DNA of 64,000 nt from Actinomycetes bacterium (lineage in GTDB: Bacteria; Actinomycetota; Acidimicrobiia; Acidimicrobiales; Bog-793): positions 1 to 64,000 of the forward strand of contig JAJZBI010000008.1 of assembly GCA_021798985.1 (NCBI GenBank). The letters are read 5' to 3'. Position 1 is the stretch's first letter. Each line of letters begins with the position of its first letter. The notes beneath the pieces are model-generated. The model was not told the DNA's origin and ran no database searches. It was given only the letters and a program-made list of their open reading frames with translations. Shown in pieces: positions 7,495-46,380 of the stretch. A program made the translations under genes and the position numbers.

Positions 7495-8897
7495 GGCCCG
7501 TGCTCACGGCGGCCGAGATAGCCGAGGTGGACGCCCGCGCCCAGGCCGAGATCGGCATCGAGGCGCTGATCCGCCGCGCCGGCCAGGCGGTCTTCTCGGC
7601 CGCGATGGCGCGCCTTGGCGGCACCTACGGCCGGCGCGTCGTCGTGGTGGCCGGCCGTGGCCACAACGGCGACGACGGCAAGGTGGCGGCCGCGCTGCTC
7701 GCCCGACGCGGGGTCCGCGCCCAGGTCCTGGCGGCGAGCGACGCGCCCGAGCGGCTCCCCGAGTGCGATCTCGTCATCGACGCCGCCTACGGCACCGGAT
7801 TTCGCGGCGCGTACCGCGCGCCCCGAACGGGCGCGGTCGTGCTCGCCGTCGACGTGCCCTCGGGGGTGCGCGCCGACACCGGCGCCGCTGGGGAGGGTGC
7901 CGTGGTCGCCGAGGAGACCGTCACCTTCGGCGCGCTGAAGCCGGGACTGCTGCTCGAGCCGGGGCGGGCGCACGCCGGCCTCGTCCACCTCGATCCGATC
8001 GGGCTCGACGCGAGCTCGGCCCGCACCTTTGAGGTCGAGGACGCGGACGTCGCCCACCGCCTGCCGTACCGTCCCCGCGAAGCCCACAAGTGGCAGAGCG
8101 CGTGCTACGTGGTGGCGGGCTCGCCGGGGATGACTGGCGCGGCGGCGATGTGCGCCCGTGCCGCCGGGCGTGCGGGGGCCGGCATGGTCCGCCTCGGCTC
8201 GCCGGGGGCTGAGCCGGGCTCGGTGCCCTTCCTCGAGGCCGTGGCGCGCCCGCTGCCGGCGACGGGCTGGGCCGAGGCGGTGCTCGGTGAGATCGGGCGC
8301 TGCAAGGCGCTCGTGTGCGGCCCCGGGCTCGGCCCGGACGCCGCGACGTCGGTGCGCGAGCTCGTCGCCGCCGCCGAGGTGCCCATGGTGCTCGACGCCG
8401 ACGGCCTGAACGCGCTCGGCGAGATCCGATCGGGCGACGGCCCGCTCGCCCGGCGGCGGGCCCCGGTCGTGCTCACCCCCCACGCCGGGGAGTTCGCGCG
8501 CCTCGCCGGCTCGCCGCCCGGCGAGGACCGCATCGCCGACGTGCGCGACCTCGCCCGGCGCGCCGGCGCCGTGGTCTTGTTGAAGGGAGCCACCACCGTG
8601 GTCGCCGATCCCGACGGCCGGGTGCTGATCGCCGCCACCGGCTCGCCACGGCTCGCCACGGCGGGCACGGGCGACGTGCTGTCGGGCGTGATCGGCGCCT
8701 TTTTGGCCCGCGGCCTGCCAGCGCTCGAGGCGGCTGCGCTCGCCGCGCACGTGCACGGGCGGGCCGCGGCGCTCGGCCGTGACGAGGGGCTGCTCGCGAA
8801 CGACTTGCCCGAGCTCGTCGCCGACCTGCTCTCGACGGCGATGCCGGCCGCGACGCGGCGCTCGCACCCGCTGCACCCGTCCCTCGCCGGTGACTGA
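7491..8897 (+). CDS. nnrD: Bifunctional NAD(P)H-hydrate epimerase / ADP-dependent dehydratase
   Basis: Repairs hydrated NADH and NADPH. The N-terminal YjeF_N epimerase half (about 1-200) has [20 protein letters not shown] and [13 protein letters not shown]. The C-terminal carbohydrate-kinase-like dehydratase (about 205-455) has [35 protein letters not shown] and the [17 protein letters not shown] nucleotide motif. The 468 residues match the fused actinobacterial enzyme. The start overlaps acpS (ATGA) and the end overlaps alr by 8 nt. Confidence 0.94.
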
Positions 8898-37606: not shown

Positions 37607-37978
37607 ATGTTGGGCCAAGACGACGCGGCGACGCCGGCTCCTGGCGTCTCGGTCGAGTTGCTGGCGGCGCTCGACCTCGGCCCAGAGATCACGGGCATGC
37701 AGGGCCGCCAGTTGCGCATGCGCCGGTTCACCTTCGCGCCCGGCGCGATCTTCGGTCCGGTCCACGAGCACAAGGACCGGCCCGGGCTCGTCTACGTCCT
37801 TCAAGGGACGATCACCGACCACCGGGCGGGGATCGCCAGGGACTACGGGCCGGGAGCCGGCTGGCCCGAGGAGCACGAGACGATGCACTGGCTCGAGAAC
37901 CGGGGAACGCTCCCGGCCATCGAGATCTCCGTCGACGTGGTTCGCCTTGGCGAGGAGCAGATCGCTCCGTCGCCATAG
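37607..37978 (+). CDS. Cupin-domain protein
   Basis: A small single-domain cupin of 123 residues. Motif 1 is GPVHEHKDRPGLVYVLQGTI, with two His and a later Gly. Motif 2 is weaker, around GWPEEHETMHWLEN. The N-terminal 35 residues are unconserved. GTG 37601 is an alternative start. Cupins bind a divalent metal and range from isomerases to storage or sensor roles; no substrate can be proposed. It converges on the heliorhodopsin gene with 175 nt between them, in which I see no further gene. Confidence 0.7.
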   Translation: MLGQDDAATPAPGVSVELLAALDLGPEITGMQGRQLRMRRFTFAPGAIFGPVHEHKDRPGLVYVLQGTITDHRAGIARDYGPGAGWPEEHETMHWLENRGTLPAIEISVDVVRLGEEQIAPSP

Positions 37979-38153: not shown

Positions 38154-38927
38154 TCAGTGGGCGGCAGTCGAGGCCAGCGTGGAGGCGAAGATCTGCCACG
38201 CGAGGAGGGTCTTTGCCGCCAAGGAGAGCGTGACGTAGACCCGCTCGCCCACCAGGTACTCGCGCCATCGCCCCACCCGGCGATATTGGAGCCATTGGTT
38301 GACGGCGAAGCAGTTGAACGCCGCGAACAGCGAGGCGAAGATCGCGTAGACGAACGCCGGAGGGTGGAGGTCGGCGCCCGGCCCGGCGAGGTAGACAGCG
38401 ATCGCTGCCCAGGGGACGATGCCGGCCAGGCAGCCGAGCCAGAAGGGGCCAAGGCTCCCCCCGGGCGGTTCGTCGCGCTCTTGAAGCCAGCCAAAGCCGA
38501 TCATCGAGGCGTTGACGCCGATCAGCGCGACGAGGGCGCCGACGTCATCGATGCCGACCAGCATGGCGATGAGCACGATCATGACCGACGCGCTGAGCGA
38601 GTACTCGAGCCATCGATAGGGATTGCGCTGGTTCGCCAGCTGGGCCTGGTAGGCGGGCCACGCCGGCCCGGCGATGGCGAGGTGGGCGACCGCAGACAGC
38701 GCGAAGAAGGCGGCGATTGCCCAGGCGAAGCGGAGGTCGAACAACGTGACGGTGCGAGTCCCGACCCCAGCGCCGGGCGGGCCAGTCATGTACGAGGCTC
38801 GCACCGGCAAGGAGAACGCGTTGGCGAAGACCACGACGGCGATGGCCTGCGCGGCATGCAGCATCCCAGCCGCCAGGTTGTAGGAACGGAGCCGAACCGG
38901 CACCGCCCAGCGCGCATGGGTGCCCAC
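38154..38927 (-). CDS. Heliorhodopsin
   Basis: Seven-helix retinal protein of the heliorhodopsin family, 257 residues (the type member 48C12 has about 253). Matching blocks are RSYNLAAGMLHAAQAIAV in helix A, the loop SYMTGPPGAG, NPYRWLEYSLSASVMIVLIA in helix C, NASMIGFGWLQE, FWLGCLAGIVPW, FAVNQWLQYRRVGRW and YVTLSLAAKTLLAWQIF in helix G. Lys239 is the retinal Schiff-base residue and Glu108 the counter-ion equivalent of Glu107. Family knowledge: heliorhodopsins have an inverted topology, slow photocycles and no established ion-pump activity. GTG 38927 gives the expected short N-terminus. No retinal or carotenoid gene occurs in the window. Confidence 0.95.
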   Translation of the reverse strand: MGTHARWAVPVRLRSYNLAAGMLHAAQAIAVVVFANAFSLPVRASYMTGPPGAGVGTRTVTLFDLRFAWAIAAFFALSAVAHLAIAGPAWPAYQAQLANQRNPYRWLEYSLSASVMIVLIAMLVGIDDVGALVALIGVNASMIGFGWLQERDEPPGGSLGPFWLGCLAGIVPWAAIAVYLAGPGADLHPPAFVYAIFASLFAAFNCFAVNQWLQYRRVGRWREYLVGERVYVTLSLAAKTLLAWQIFASTLASTAAH

Positions 38928-39059
38928 GCCTTCAGCAAACGCCGCCGGCGCAGCGACGGCCAGGGCCGAACGTCCCTTTGCGCCATCTTGTCGATCACGG
39001 CGGGGATAGGGCCAGACCCGTTGGTCCCGGCCCCCCCGTGCGTCGGGCGGCGCGCCGCG

Positions 39060-39779
39060 CTACTGGATCCCGCACACCTGACCGAGGGCGGCGGGGACCG
39101 CCACCGTCTGTCGCCCGTCGGCTGTGCAGTAGGGGTTGGGCCGCGCGAAGTCGACGGGATGCCATGTCCCGTGCCCGTAGCGCATCAAGGCGCCGTGTGG
39201 CGCGCCGACCGGCCCGGTGGAACCGGGTGCCAAGGCGTCGCTGCGCTCGATCATCACCGAGATCTCGGCCAGGTTCCCGGCACAGACGAGGTGCCCGTTG
39301 TAGACGACGCGGACCTTGCTGCCGTAGTCCGACTGGAGCGCCGCCAGCATCGGGGCGATGGCGCACGGCGCCTGGAGTGGCGCCTGCAACAGCGGCGAGG
39401 AGGCCGCCACGCGATAGGCGTATTGGACGACGCTGAAGCGGAGCCCGTCACGCGTCCGCTTCGGCGCAGCGAACCTGAGCGTCGCGAGATAGCGCACCAC
39501 GCGGCCGCGGGCGCAGCTCGGCGTGCACGAGTTGTGCACGTAGACGGCGGTCGCCGTCGCCGAAGCTGCCGTCCAGCTCGTCCAGTGGATCTTCTCCAAA
39601 GAGGCGCTCGCGTCCGTGCAGGACAAGGCGTAGCGCGCCGGCCGGACCACTGCTTCGCCCTGGCAGGTGAGCACGCGTACCGCGCTGGGGGCGCTCGTCG
39701 CGCTGGGGGCGCGACCTGCGAGCGGCACGATGGCGACGCTGAACGCTCCAAAGAGCGCCAACCCGGCGAGTTGGTTCAC
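39060..39779 (-). CDS. Secreted cysteine-rich hypothetical protein upstream of heliorhodopsin
   Basis: It has 239 residues. The signal segment is VNQLAGLALFGAFSVAIVPLAG. The mature part has an actinobacterial extracellular module: VLTCQGEAVVRPARYALSCT, then IHWTSWTAASATATAVY and NSCTPSCARGRVVRYLATL, a Cys/Trp pattern seen in many secreted proteins of the phylum. Further Cys in APCAIAPM, LVCAGN, PYCTADG and QVCGIQ suggest disulfides. GTG 39779 has an AGGGAGG ribosome site; the frame is open 39 codons further but without a signal-like start. It lies 132 nt upstream of the heliorhodopsin in the same direction. Function unknown. Confidence 0.75.
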   Translation of the reverse strand: MNQLAGLALFGAFSVAIVPLAGRAPSATSAPSAVRVLTCQGEAVVRPARYALSCTDASASLEKIHWTSWTAASATATAVYVHNSCTPSCARGRVVRYLATLRFAAPKRTRDGLRFSVVQYAYRVAASSPLLQAPLQAPCAIAPMLAALQSDYGSKVRVVYNGHLVCAGNLAEISVMIERSDALAPGSTGPVGAPHGALMRYGHGTWHPVDFARPNPYCTADGRQTVAVPAALGQVCGIQ

Positions 39780-40053
39780 AAGGGCCGCGCCTCCCTTCCT
39801 CCACCAGCATTGCGGCGCTCGAGGCCGAAGGCCAGCCAGCACCCATCGCGTGCACTGTGCCAGGTTCGCCTCGCTGGGATTAGGGCCAAAGGTCACCTCG
39901 GCGCCCGTGGCGCACCCGTTCGCCCTCGATCGTGTCTCCGGCTCGACGGGCGAGGTGCGGCCGTGTGCCCTATGGCCTTGGCCGGCCGCGTGTCGTCCTT
40001 GGGCGAGGCTGAGGGCAGCGGCACGCCCCGACGCCCCGGTCGGGACCTTGGTC

Positions 40054-41145
40054 TCAGGGTGTGAAGCTGATTCCGCCCTTCGCCTGGGCGGTCGTCATCA
40101 GCTCCACCCAGGTCCGGCCCGGTGCGAGACCGACGGGGTTCCCGGCGGCGTCGGTGAACGTCGTCGCCGCGCTGTCGCTCGCGCGATGCCAGGTCACCGG
40201 GAGGTAGTGGCCGTCGCGCAGCACGTAGCCCTGGCCGCTCCCGGTCGTCTGGCTCTCCACGTCCCCGCTGCCACCCGGGCTCTCAATGTAGGGGCCGAGG
40301 CGGTAGTTGACGATCTCGACCACGACGTTGGTGGTACTGACGGGCTGGTTGGTGAGGGCGTCGACGTCAGGGCTATTAGCATAGGTGTGCAGCCAGTCTT
40401 TGCCAGCGGCGTTCCAGTGCCAGACGACGTCGGTCCCCGCGGAGAAGTTGAGGGCCGCGGCGGACAGCGGTTTCGCGCTCTTTGGAAGCGAGGAGGTGTA
40501 GGTGAATACCGGGGCGGGCGGCGTGTGGTCTTTGGGGAACAAGCCATAGAGGGCCTGGGTGCTCGTGTAGAGGTTGTCGGGCGGCACGCGATTGGTCGTG
40601 CGCACGCCGACGGGGCTCGAGAAGTCGAGCAGGTCGACGCTGTGCAGCCAGTGGTCGGCCTGGACGGCCTGCAGGTTGGGGTCGATCCCCCCGGCGAAGG
40701 CGAGGATGGGGGAGCCGAACTGGCCGGCGAGGTGGTAGTCGACCCAGCGCAGCGAGCGATCGGGGCCGATCATGGAGGCGTTGGTGCACTGGTAGACGGC
40801 CATGTAGCGCATGATGAAGCCCTCGGCGGGCGTGTCGTAGACGATGTCCGCCTCGTTCAGGCCGCTTTGGGGACGGGCGCCGTTCGGCTCGTTGCCGATC
40901 TTCACCAACAGCGCGGGGCGCTGGGGCACCTTTCCACCCGGAGCCGGCAGGTCGGTCAGCGGGCAGCGGCTCGTCGCCACCGCCGCCGGGGCGCTTTCGG
41001 CGTGGCTCGGGTGGTGCTTGGTCGCCAGCACGGCGCCGGCAGCGGCGGCCGCGATGACGACGACGAGCGCGGCGGCGACGCCGAGGCGCCGGCGGCGGAT
41101 GGTTGCGGCCGAGGGCGCGGCGGGCTTGCGGGTATGGGCGGGCAC
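40054..41145 (-). CDS. DUF3048 (YerB-like) membrane-anchored extracytoplasmic protein
   Basis: It has 363 residues. A basic stretch IRRRRL and a single hydrophobic segment (GVAAALVVVIAAAAAGAVLA) anchor the protein. The exported body holds the DUF3048 core: RPALLVKIGNEPNGARPQSG, LNEADIVYDTPAEGFIMRYM and later FPKDHTPPAPVFTYTSSL and RDGHYLPVTW. The function of the family is unknown. GTG 41145 is chosen because TAACTT lies 13 nt upstream; a TTG six codons earlier is also open. It is on the same strand as the heliorhodopsin and its neighbour. The 274-nt gap downstream (39780-40053) shows no gene. Confidence 0.85.
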   Translation of the reverse strand: MPAHTRKPAAPSAATIRRRRLGVAAALVVVIAAAAAGAVLATKHHPSHAESAPAAVATSRCPLTDLPAPGGKVPQRPALLVKIGNEPNGARPQSGLNEADIVYDTPAEGFIMRYMAVYQCTNASMIGPDRSLRWVDYHLAGQFGSPILAFAGGIDPNLQAVQADHWLHSVDLLDFSSPVGVRTTNRVPPDNLYTSTQALYGLFPKDHTPPAPVFTYTSSLPKSAKPLSAAALNFSAGTDVVWHWNAAGKDWLHTYANSPDVDALTNQPVSTTNVVVEIVNYRLGPYIESPGGSGDVESQTTGSGQGYVLRDGHYLPVTWHRASDSAATTFTDAAGNPVGLAPGRTWVELMTTAQAKGGISFTP

Positions 41146-41152
41146 GGCCGAG

Positions 41153-41158
41153 AAGTTA
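41153..41158 (-). promoter_or_regulatory. -10 box for the DUF3048 gene
   Basis: On the minus strand TAACTT begins 13 nt before GTG 41145, predicting a leaderless or 1-nt leader transcript. Confidence 0.4.
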
Positions 41159-41235
41159 AACAATCTGCGGCCGGATGTGGGGGCAGGCGCCCCAACCGTG
41201 CCGACGCGCGCCCCAACGGTGCGATCGCCGTCGCC

Positions 41236-45117: not shown

Positions 45118-46380
45118 GTGTCAAGCGACTTCACCGCGCCGCTCGGCGAGCTCGATCCAGAGCTCGCCGGCCTGATCGACGCCGAGCTCGACCGAGAGCG
45201 CCACAGCCTCGACTGCATCGCGTCAGAGAACTTCGTCCCTGCGGCGCTCATGGAGGTCCAGGGTTCGGTCCTCACGAACAAGTACGCCGACGGCTACCCC
45301 GGCCGGCGCGACTACGACGGCTGCGAGGTGATCGACGAGGTCGAGCGCCTCGCCATCGCCCGGGCCAAGGCACTCTTTGGCGCCGAGCACGCCAACGTGC
45401 AGCCCTACTCGGGCTCGAACGCCAACTTCGCCGTGTTGCGCGCCCTGTGCGCGCCGGGCGACACGGTCCTTGGGTGGGACTTCACCCATGGCGGACACCC
45501 CACCCACTACGACGCCGACACCTTGACGGGGCGCTTCTACCGGGGCATCGCCTACCACGTGCGCCGCAGCGACCGCCTCGTCGACGTAGACGAGGCTGCC
45601 GAGCTCGCCATGACACACCACCCGAAGGTGATCTTTATCGGCTGGTCGTGCTACCCGCGCACCGTCGACTACGCGGCCTTCCGCGAGATCGCCGATCGGG
45701 TCGGCGCCTACCTCGTCGCCGACATGGCGCACGTGGCGGGCATCGTGGCCGCCAAGGCGCACCCGAACCCCGCGCCGCTCGCCGACGTCTGCACCTTCAC
45801 GACCCACAAGACCCTCGGTGGAGCGCGCGGCGGCGTGATCTTGTCCCGCGCCGACCTCGCCGAGCGCATCGACACGGCCGTCTACCCTGGCTCCCAGGGC
45901 GGCCCGCTGCCCCACGTCTTTGGCGCCCATGCCCTCGCCTTCCACCTCGCGGCGCGCCCGGAGTTCGCCGGGCGCATCGCCCAGACCCTGTCGGGCGCGC
46001 GCACTCTCGCCCGCGTGCTCGTCGAGGCCGAGGCGACGACGCGCTGTCAGGTCGTCACGGGGGGGACCGAGAACCACCAGGTCATCTTGGACGTCTCCCC
46101 CTCGGGGATGGACGGGGCCGCGGCGCTCGAGCGGCTGGAGGCGATCGGGATCAACGCCAACGCGATGCCGCTCGCCTACGACCCGGTTGCCGGGCCGATC
46201 GGCTCGGGGATCCGCCTCGGCGCGACCGCGCTCGCCACGCGCGGCCTCGACGACGATGCCTTCGCCGAACTCGGGGAGCTGATCGCCGCCGCGCTCGGCA
46301 GCGAGGGCCCGAGCGAGGCCGTGGAGGGCCGGGCCGCCCAGCTTGCCGCCTCCTTTCCGCTGTATCCGGCGCTCAGCTGA
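45118..46380 (+). CDS. glyA: Serine hydroxymethyltransferase
   Basis: PLP enzyme converting serine and tetrahydrofolate to glycine and 5,10-methylene-THF. It has 420 residues. Signatures are LDCIASENFVPAAL, LTNKYADGYPGRRDYDGCE, QPYSGSNANFAV and VADMAHVAGIVA. Lys231 in FTTHKTLGGARGG is the PLP lysine; the usual TLRGPRGG is slightly altered. GTG 45118 lies 1 nt after sucD, so it belongs to the suc operon. It supplies the one-carbon units used by purN, purH, folD and metF elsewhere in the window. Confidence 0.96.
   Translation: MSSDFTAPLGELDPELAGLIDAELDRERHSLDCIASENFVPAALMEVQGSVLTNKYADGYPGRRDYDGCEVIDEVERLAIARAKALFGAEHANVQPYSGSNANFAVLRALCAPGDTVLGWDFTHGGHPTHYDADTLTGRFYRGIAYHVRRSDRLVDVDEAAELAMTHHPKVIFIGWSCYPRTVDYAAFREIADRVGAYLVADMAHVAGIVAAKAHPNPAPLADVCTFTTHKTLGGARGGVILSRADLAERIDTAVYPGSQGGPLPHVFGAHALAFHLAARPEFAGRIAQTLSGARTLARVLVEAEATTRCQVVTGGTENHQVILDVSPSGMDGAAALERLEAIGINANAMPLAYDPVAGPIGSGIRLGATALATRGLDDDAFAELGELIAAALGSEGPSEAVEGRAAQLAASFPLYPALS

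Follow-up and report, generated by a model that had tools for sequence, protein, structure and literature searches.

A lone heliorhodopsin gene behind an OsdR/DevR-like box in an acidimicrobial genome without detectable retinal synthesis genes

The window, by which we mean the whole 64,000-nucleotide stretch of DNA that was analyzed, comprises bases 1 to 64000 of contig C59 in a 3.76-Mb genome (G000) that is 97% complete. Related contigs are labeled Acidimicrobiaceae, Acidimicrobiales, or Actinomycetes, and several bear bog or fen isolate names; other related genomes, going by their isolate names, presumably come from mine sites. The window contains a heliorhodopsin (HeR) gene at 38154 to 38927 on the minus strand, encoding 257 residues from a GTG start, which is exactly the open reading frame that an earlier note on this DNA had claimed. 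A cupin-domain gene (37607 to 37978, plus strand) is convergent with it and is not a conserved neighbor. On the other side lie a gene (39060 to 39779, minus strand) whose product is small, looks secreted, and has no Pfam match, which adjoins the HeR gene and ends 132 nt before it, and a DUF3048 gene (40054 to 41163, minus strand), which directly adjoins a HeR remnant in the sister species G002. Other genes near HeR in the window are pcrA, a CHASE-GGDEF-EAL gene, a methionine-synthase-like gene, and sucCD. Beside sucCD, at 45118 to 46380, is a glyA-type gene that shares only about 49% identity with another copy, on contig C67.

By sequence and predicted fold, the product is a complete heliorhodopsin and an ordinary member of its family. 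Heliorhodopsins are light-sensing proteins whose function is unsettled. The Pfam profile PF18761 matched the product over positions 1 to 242 of 242 (E = 2.7e−94; 315.5 bits against a cut-off of 26.7), and the NCBIfam equivalog NF038020 for HeR scored 306 bits against a cut-off of 100. A PDB search found HeR 48C12 (6su3) with an E-value of 1.3e−71 and 120 of 241 aligned residues identical. The AlphaFold model (28 homologues; pLDDT 89.9) had the same 6su3 as its best Foldseek match (TM 0.92, rmsd 1.4 Å); against the 48C12 structures overall it gave TM 0.91 to 0.92 and rmsd 1.4 to 1.5 Å, compared with TM of about 0.45 to 0.66 for the listed type-1 rhodopsins. Both profiles, the PDB search, and the model thus agree on the family named in the earlier note. 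48C12, from an uncultured freshwater actinobacterium (PDB 6su3 and 6uh3), has the same fold and 50% identity; this comparison is of the proteins only, and the OsdR/DevR-like box and the genome without known retinal synthesis described below belong to the window HeR.

A hallmark of heliorhodopsins is a retinal-binding lysine in TM7, within an SxxxK motif (PMC8612252). Here the motif reads S235-L-A-A-K239 and aligns with S237 and K241 of 48C12, and Glu108 aligns with Glu107 in TM3, in keeping with the Schiff-base and counter-ion roles that had been proposed for Lys239 and Glu108; the helix G lysine is thus placed by sequence alignment, in a model whose fold matches that of 48C12. Using the set of hydrogen-bond network residues given for 48C12 in PMC9726877, we found N16, H23, Q26, S76, H80, Y92, R104, S111, E149, E230, S237, and W246 (48C12 numbering) to be conserved as well. 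By analogy with its family, the protein would have an inverted topology with a cytoplasmic N terminus, and would bind retinal and go through a slow photocycle without pumping.

Where would the retinal come from? The earlier note had remarked that the window holds no retinal-forming gene, and this extends to the genome. A profile search of this genome and 13 relatives found no BCD (PF15461; BCD/Blh) in any of the 14 and was therefore widened to 296 genomes of the class Acidimicrobiia, of which 3 have BCD and 143 have HeR; the 3 positives show that the profile works. In all three BCD genomes, BCD and a type-1 rhodopsin gene lie no more than about 2 kb apart, and two of the three also carry HeR. 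Hence, where BCD is found in the class it adjoins type-1 rhodopsins, and nearly all HeR genomes are without it. The G000 genome yielded no type-1 rhodopsin, RPE65-type carotenoid oxygenase, phytoene synthase, or CrtI-family desaturase above the cut-off, with the proviso that it is 97% complete and such a gene could lie in the missing part. Its two SQS_PSY genes were rejected as evidence of carotenoid synthesis, being HpnC and HpnD (the latter slightly under its cut-off, 268.5 against 278.6) in a hopanoid cluster; the cluster, at L078:3380-11256, comprises HpnH, squalene-hopene cyclase, polyprenyl synthase, HpnE, HpnD, and HpnC. A CrtI-like protein on contig C46 was likewise set aside, since its score of 98.6 falls short of the cut-off of 238.1, and CrtO, to which it matched best, likewise came far under its own cut-off. 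With no known retinal-making gene detectable, the retinal would have to come from outside or be made by an unfamiliar route. HeR genomes without retinal synthesis genes have been reported before, for "Ca. Actinomarinales," in which two nuo operons always flank HeR and the genomes also have a proton pump (PMC7771536). In contrast, HeR varies in place among the relatives of the window genome, and we found no type-1 rhodopsin in the G000 genome.

Upstream of the HeR gene, at 38962 to 38976 on the minus strand, is the box GGGACGTTCGGCCCT, the only exact match within the window, 34 nt before the GTG and centered about −42 from the start codon. In the HeR tree, the window gene falls within a clade of nine (100/99 support), and all nine intact HeR genes of this clade have the box at ≤2 mismatches; the intact HeR genes that were tested outside the clade gave none at ≤2 mismatches. 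The form shared by the upstream regions of the nine is close to [AG]GGACGTTCGNCCCT, and their flanks are otherwise unlike. The distance from box to start is exactly 34 nt in seven of the nine and 35 in one; in the last it is either 33 or 36, according to which start is used. The nine genes are related and hence do not represent nine independent events. A −10-like hexamer, TTTGCT, lies 7 to 12 nt before the start codon (38934 to 38939, minus strand), at a position where relatives have TGTGCT, TCTGCT, or TATCCT. The arrangement of a box at −42 and a hexamer at −12 to −7 suggests an activator site that overlaps the −35 region of a promoter giving a leaderless transcript. In its 16-nt form, AGGGACGTTCGGCCCT, the box shares 14 of 16 bases with the OsdR consensus AGGGCCGATCGGCCCT, a match to a Streptomyces consensus and made by consensus only; that consensus agrees with the DevR site (PMC5069765). 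The S. coelicolor OsdR regulon (PMC5069765) and the M. tuberculosis DevR (DosR) regulon (PMC5309233) have a closely similar palindromic box.

Besides HeR, about 20 genes in this genome have the box in front of them, many with redox, anaerobic-energy, or stress functions. At ≤1 mismatch the genome has 24 sites, compared with 2 for the reversed pattern. Of the 23 sites that were located, 22 are intergenic though 86% of the sequence is coding (binomial P of about 4e−18 over 2.0 Mb of stretches, which were picked on box-bearing contigs, so that site densities are not genome averages), and forty shuffled patterns gave a mean of 1.1 and a maximum of 4 intergenic matches. Genes beside the boxes were called by a simple codon-usage script, so their starts and distances are approximate. 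They include those for a 2-oxoacid:ferredoxin oxidoreductase, a 4Fe-4S protein, thioredoxin, OsmC, peroxiredoxin, hemerythrin, a cyclic-nucleotide-binding protein, and DoxX, as well as a phosphoribosyltransferase gene beside one for nicotinate phosphoribosyltransferase, and a GAPDH gene followed by a PEP-synthase-like gene; among them are also genes for SLAC1, an MFS transporter, and an ABC-type permease, along with unknowns. Phosphoribosyltransferase and nicotinate salvage are target types that overlap with the OsdR and DevR regulons, the M. tuberculosis dormancy gene table including Rv0571c (phosphoribosyltransferase) and Rv0573c (nicotinamide recycling) (PMC5309233). The small secreted-looking protein next to HeR has a weaker box (2 mismatches; 39882 to 39896) upstream of its gene, and a paralogue with 48% identity over 130 residues (L161:2614-3324, plus strand, contig C62), likewise small, secreted-looking, and unmatched in Pfam, has a box upstream too. 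Two further paralogues, 37% identical to each other and without a Pfam match (L157:1912-2442 and L158:1940-2482, both minus strand), lie 37 to 58 nt behind a box. HypF/HypC/HypD-like genes for hydrogenase maturation, recognized by eye from translations, occur near boxed genes on contig C18 (L163:16665-19999).

We hypothesize, with a probability of roughly 55%, that the gene is part of an OsdR/DevR-like redox regulon and encodes a stand-alone HeR light sensor or switch that uses scavenged retinal. It would be a functional sensor or switch and not a pump; the predicted fold is complete, and the lysine, the counter-ion, and the proton-relay residues are present. As in other members of the family, light would isomerize the retinal on Lys239, and a proton would move via Glu108 toward His82/His24, with a change in shape. 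The retinal itself would be scavenged from other organisms. A NarL-family response regulator would switch HeR on from the leaderless promoter upon a change in oxygen or redox state, and the cell would thereby become light sensitive in the changed state; the driver may be a relative of DevR/OsdR and the signal may be low oxygen. The transporters and unknowns among the boxed genes count against such a regulon, as does a box that matches by consensus only. The box predicts that HeR is coexpressed with the 2-oxoacid:ferredoxin oxidoreductase, thioredoxin, peroxiredoxin, and phosphoribosyltransferase genes upon such a change.

The alternative that survives best keeps HeR in the same regulon and assigns the box to a different regulator that is no relative of DevR/OsdR, which is possible if somewhat unlikely. 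A search of 2.38 of the 3.76 Mb (63% of the genome) yielded four NarL-family response regulators. Among the three compared with PDB, the best match was DevR for one and VraR for two, and none of the four could be assigned to the box as a DevR/OsdR orthologue, which leaves room for a different regulator, as does the inner TT that is fixed here where the OsdR consensus has GAT. However, the 14 bases shared with that consensus, the GGGnC...GnCCC layout, and some of the target types agree with OsdR/DevR.

Could HeR instead work with a dedicated partner encoded alongside it, such as a glutamine synthetase, a photolyase, an ABC transporter, or a histidine kinase? Such linkages have been reported for other HeRs (PMC8612252, PMC9529153, PMC9769723, PMC11109279). 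AbHeR (glutamine synthetase; PMC9529153), TfHeR (photolyase; PMC9769723), and OcHeR (ABC transporter; PMC11109279) belong to the same family and have been assigned a sensory or modulating role, and the CHASE-GGDEF-EAL gene lies about 2 kb from HeR in the window. Unlike those three with their identified partners, the window HeR has no conserved neighbor: 37 related HeR loci contained no consistent operon partner and almost no recurring neighbors, the cupin gene runs toward HeR from the opposite strand, and 132 nt separate HeR from the end of the next gene upstream. The gene stands alone and is differently placed in nearly every relative, and we consider a partner encoded alongside improbable.

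The distribution of HeR among relatives suggests both movement and loss. GuaA served as the housekeeping marker for comparison because GlyA, which was tried first, is duplicated. Relative to the window genome, G038, from another family, has 82% identity in HeR and 61% in GuaA, whereas G022, from the same family, has 77% and 75%, respectively. L045 and L046 have 85% in HeR and 61 to 62% in GuaA, and two contigs labeled Dormiibacterota have 71 to 73% and 58 to 59%. Across families HeR is thus more alike than GuaA, and its identity does not track the genome. This mismatch suggests a transfer of HeR between lineages, which is supported but not proven by these identities; a binning error or a transfer of GuaA itself could also produce it.

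At least four relatives have a decayed HeR, and most genomes of the host family have none. G002 has its remnant in the same place, beside DUF3048 and at a contig end, with 73% DNA identity compared with 86% in the flank. The G001 copy is frameshifted and its counter-ion motif reads RWLGHS. The broken remnant of G006 and the intact gene of G023 lie in neighborhoods with three genes in common, one of them thiE-like, and L073 has a remnant, with the box retained, where L045 has the intact gene. These remnants and absences would suit a HeR that is a passenger heading for loss, already useless and still unbroken. We regard this as quite unlikely for the window gene, which retains its full-length frame, its functional residues, and its box, and whose dN/dS against 15 homologues is low (0.09 to 0.24, for whole pairs and not for the terminal branch of the window gene); intact copies among the relatives are under purifying selection. 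The decay in some lineages means that the benefit of HeR is probably conditional.

That the box is merely inherited sequence near the gene, without a role in HeR expression, is very unlikely: its nine carriers do form one HeR clade, yet synonymous divergence within that clade is 0.6 to 1.1 and the upstream regions are scrambled while box and spacing are kept, and the same box precedes other genes of the genome.

More tentatively, we propose that in an Acidimicrobiia clade of acidic habitats HeR may travel as a one-gene unit with its own box, which would be wired on arrival into the hypoxia or redox (dormancy-type) regulon of the recipient and supplied with retinal from other organisms. Such a gene would be mobile and would link light sensing to oxygen limitation. 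What is new is the combination: the HeR gene is intact, lone, and apparently mobile, its genome lacks known retinal synthesis, and its conserved OsdR/DevR-like box is common to a largely redox and anaerobic gene set. To our knowledge, no rhodopsin belongs to the OsdR or DevR (DosR) regulon; our literature search found no paper linking rhodopsins to DosR, and, by title and abstract, papers naming heliorhodopsin and hypoxia made no such link. Neighboring genes have so far supplied most of the clues to the role of HeR, and these are uninformative here.

Some related loci have upstream and downstream features of their own. The HeR genes of L050 and L051, both labeled Dormiibacterota, have a conserved sequence upstream of position 8001 that is unlike the box. 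In both L039 and L040, HeR has P-type-ATPase-like genes nearby, and L040 has a second box, GGGACCTTCGACCCT (L040:8819-8833), just downstream of HeR and 147 nt before another gene.
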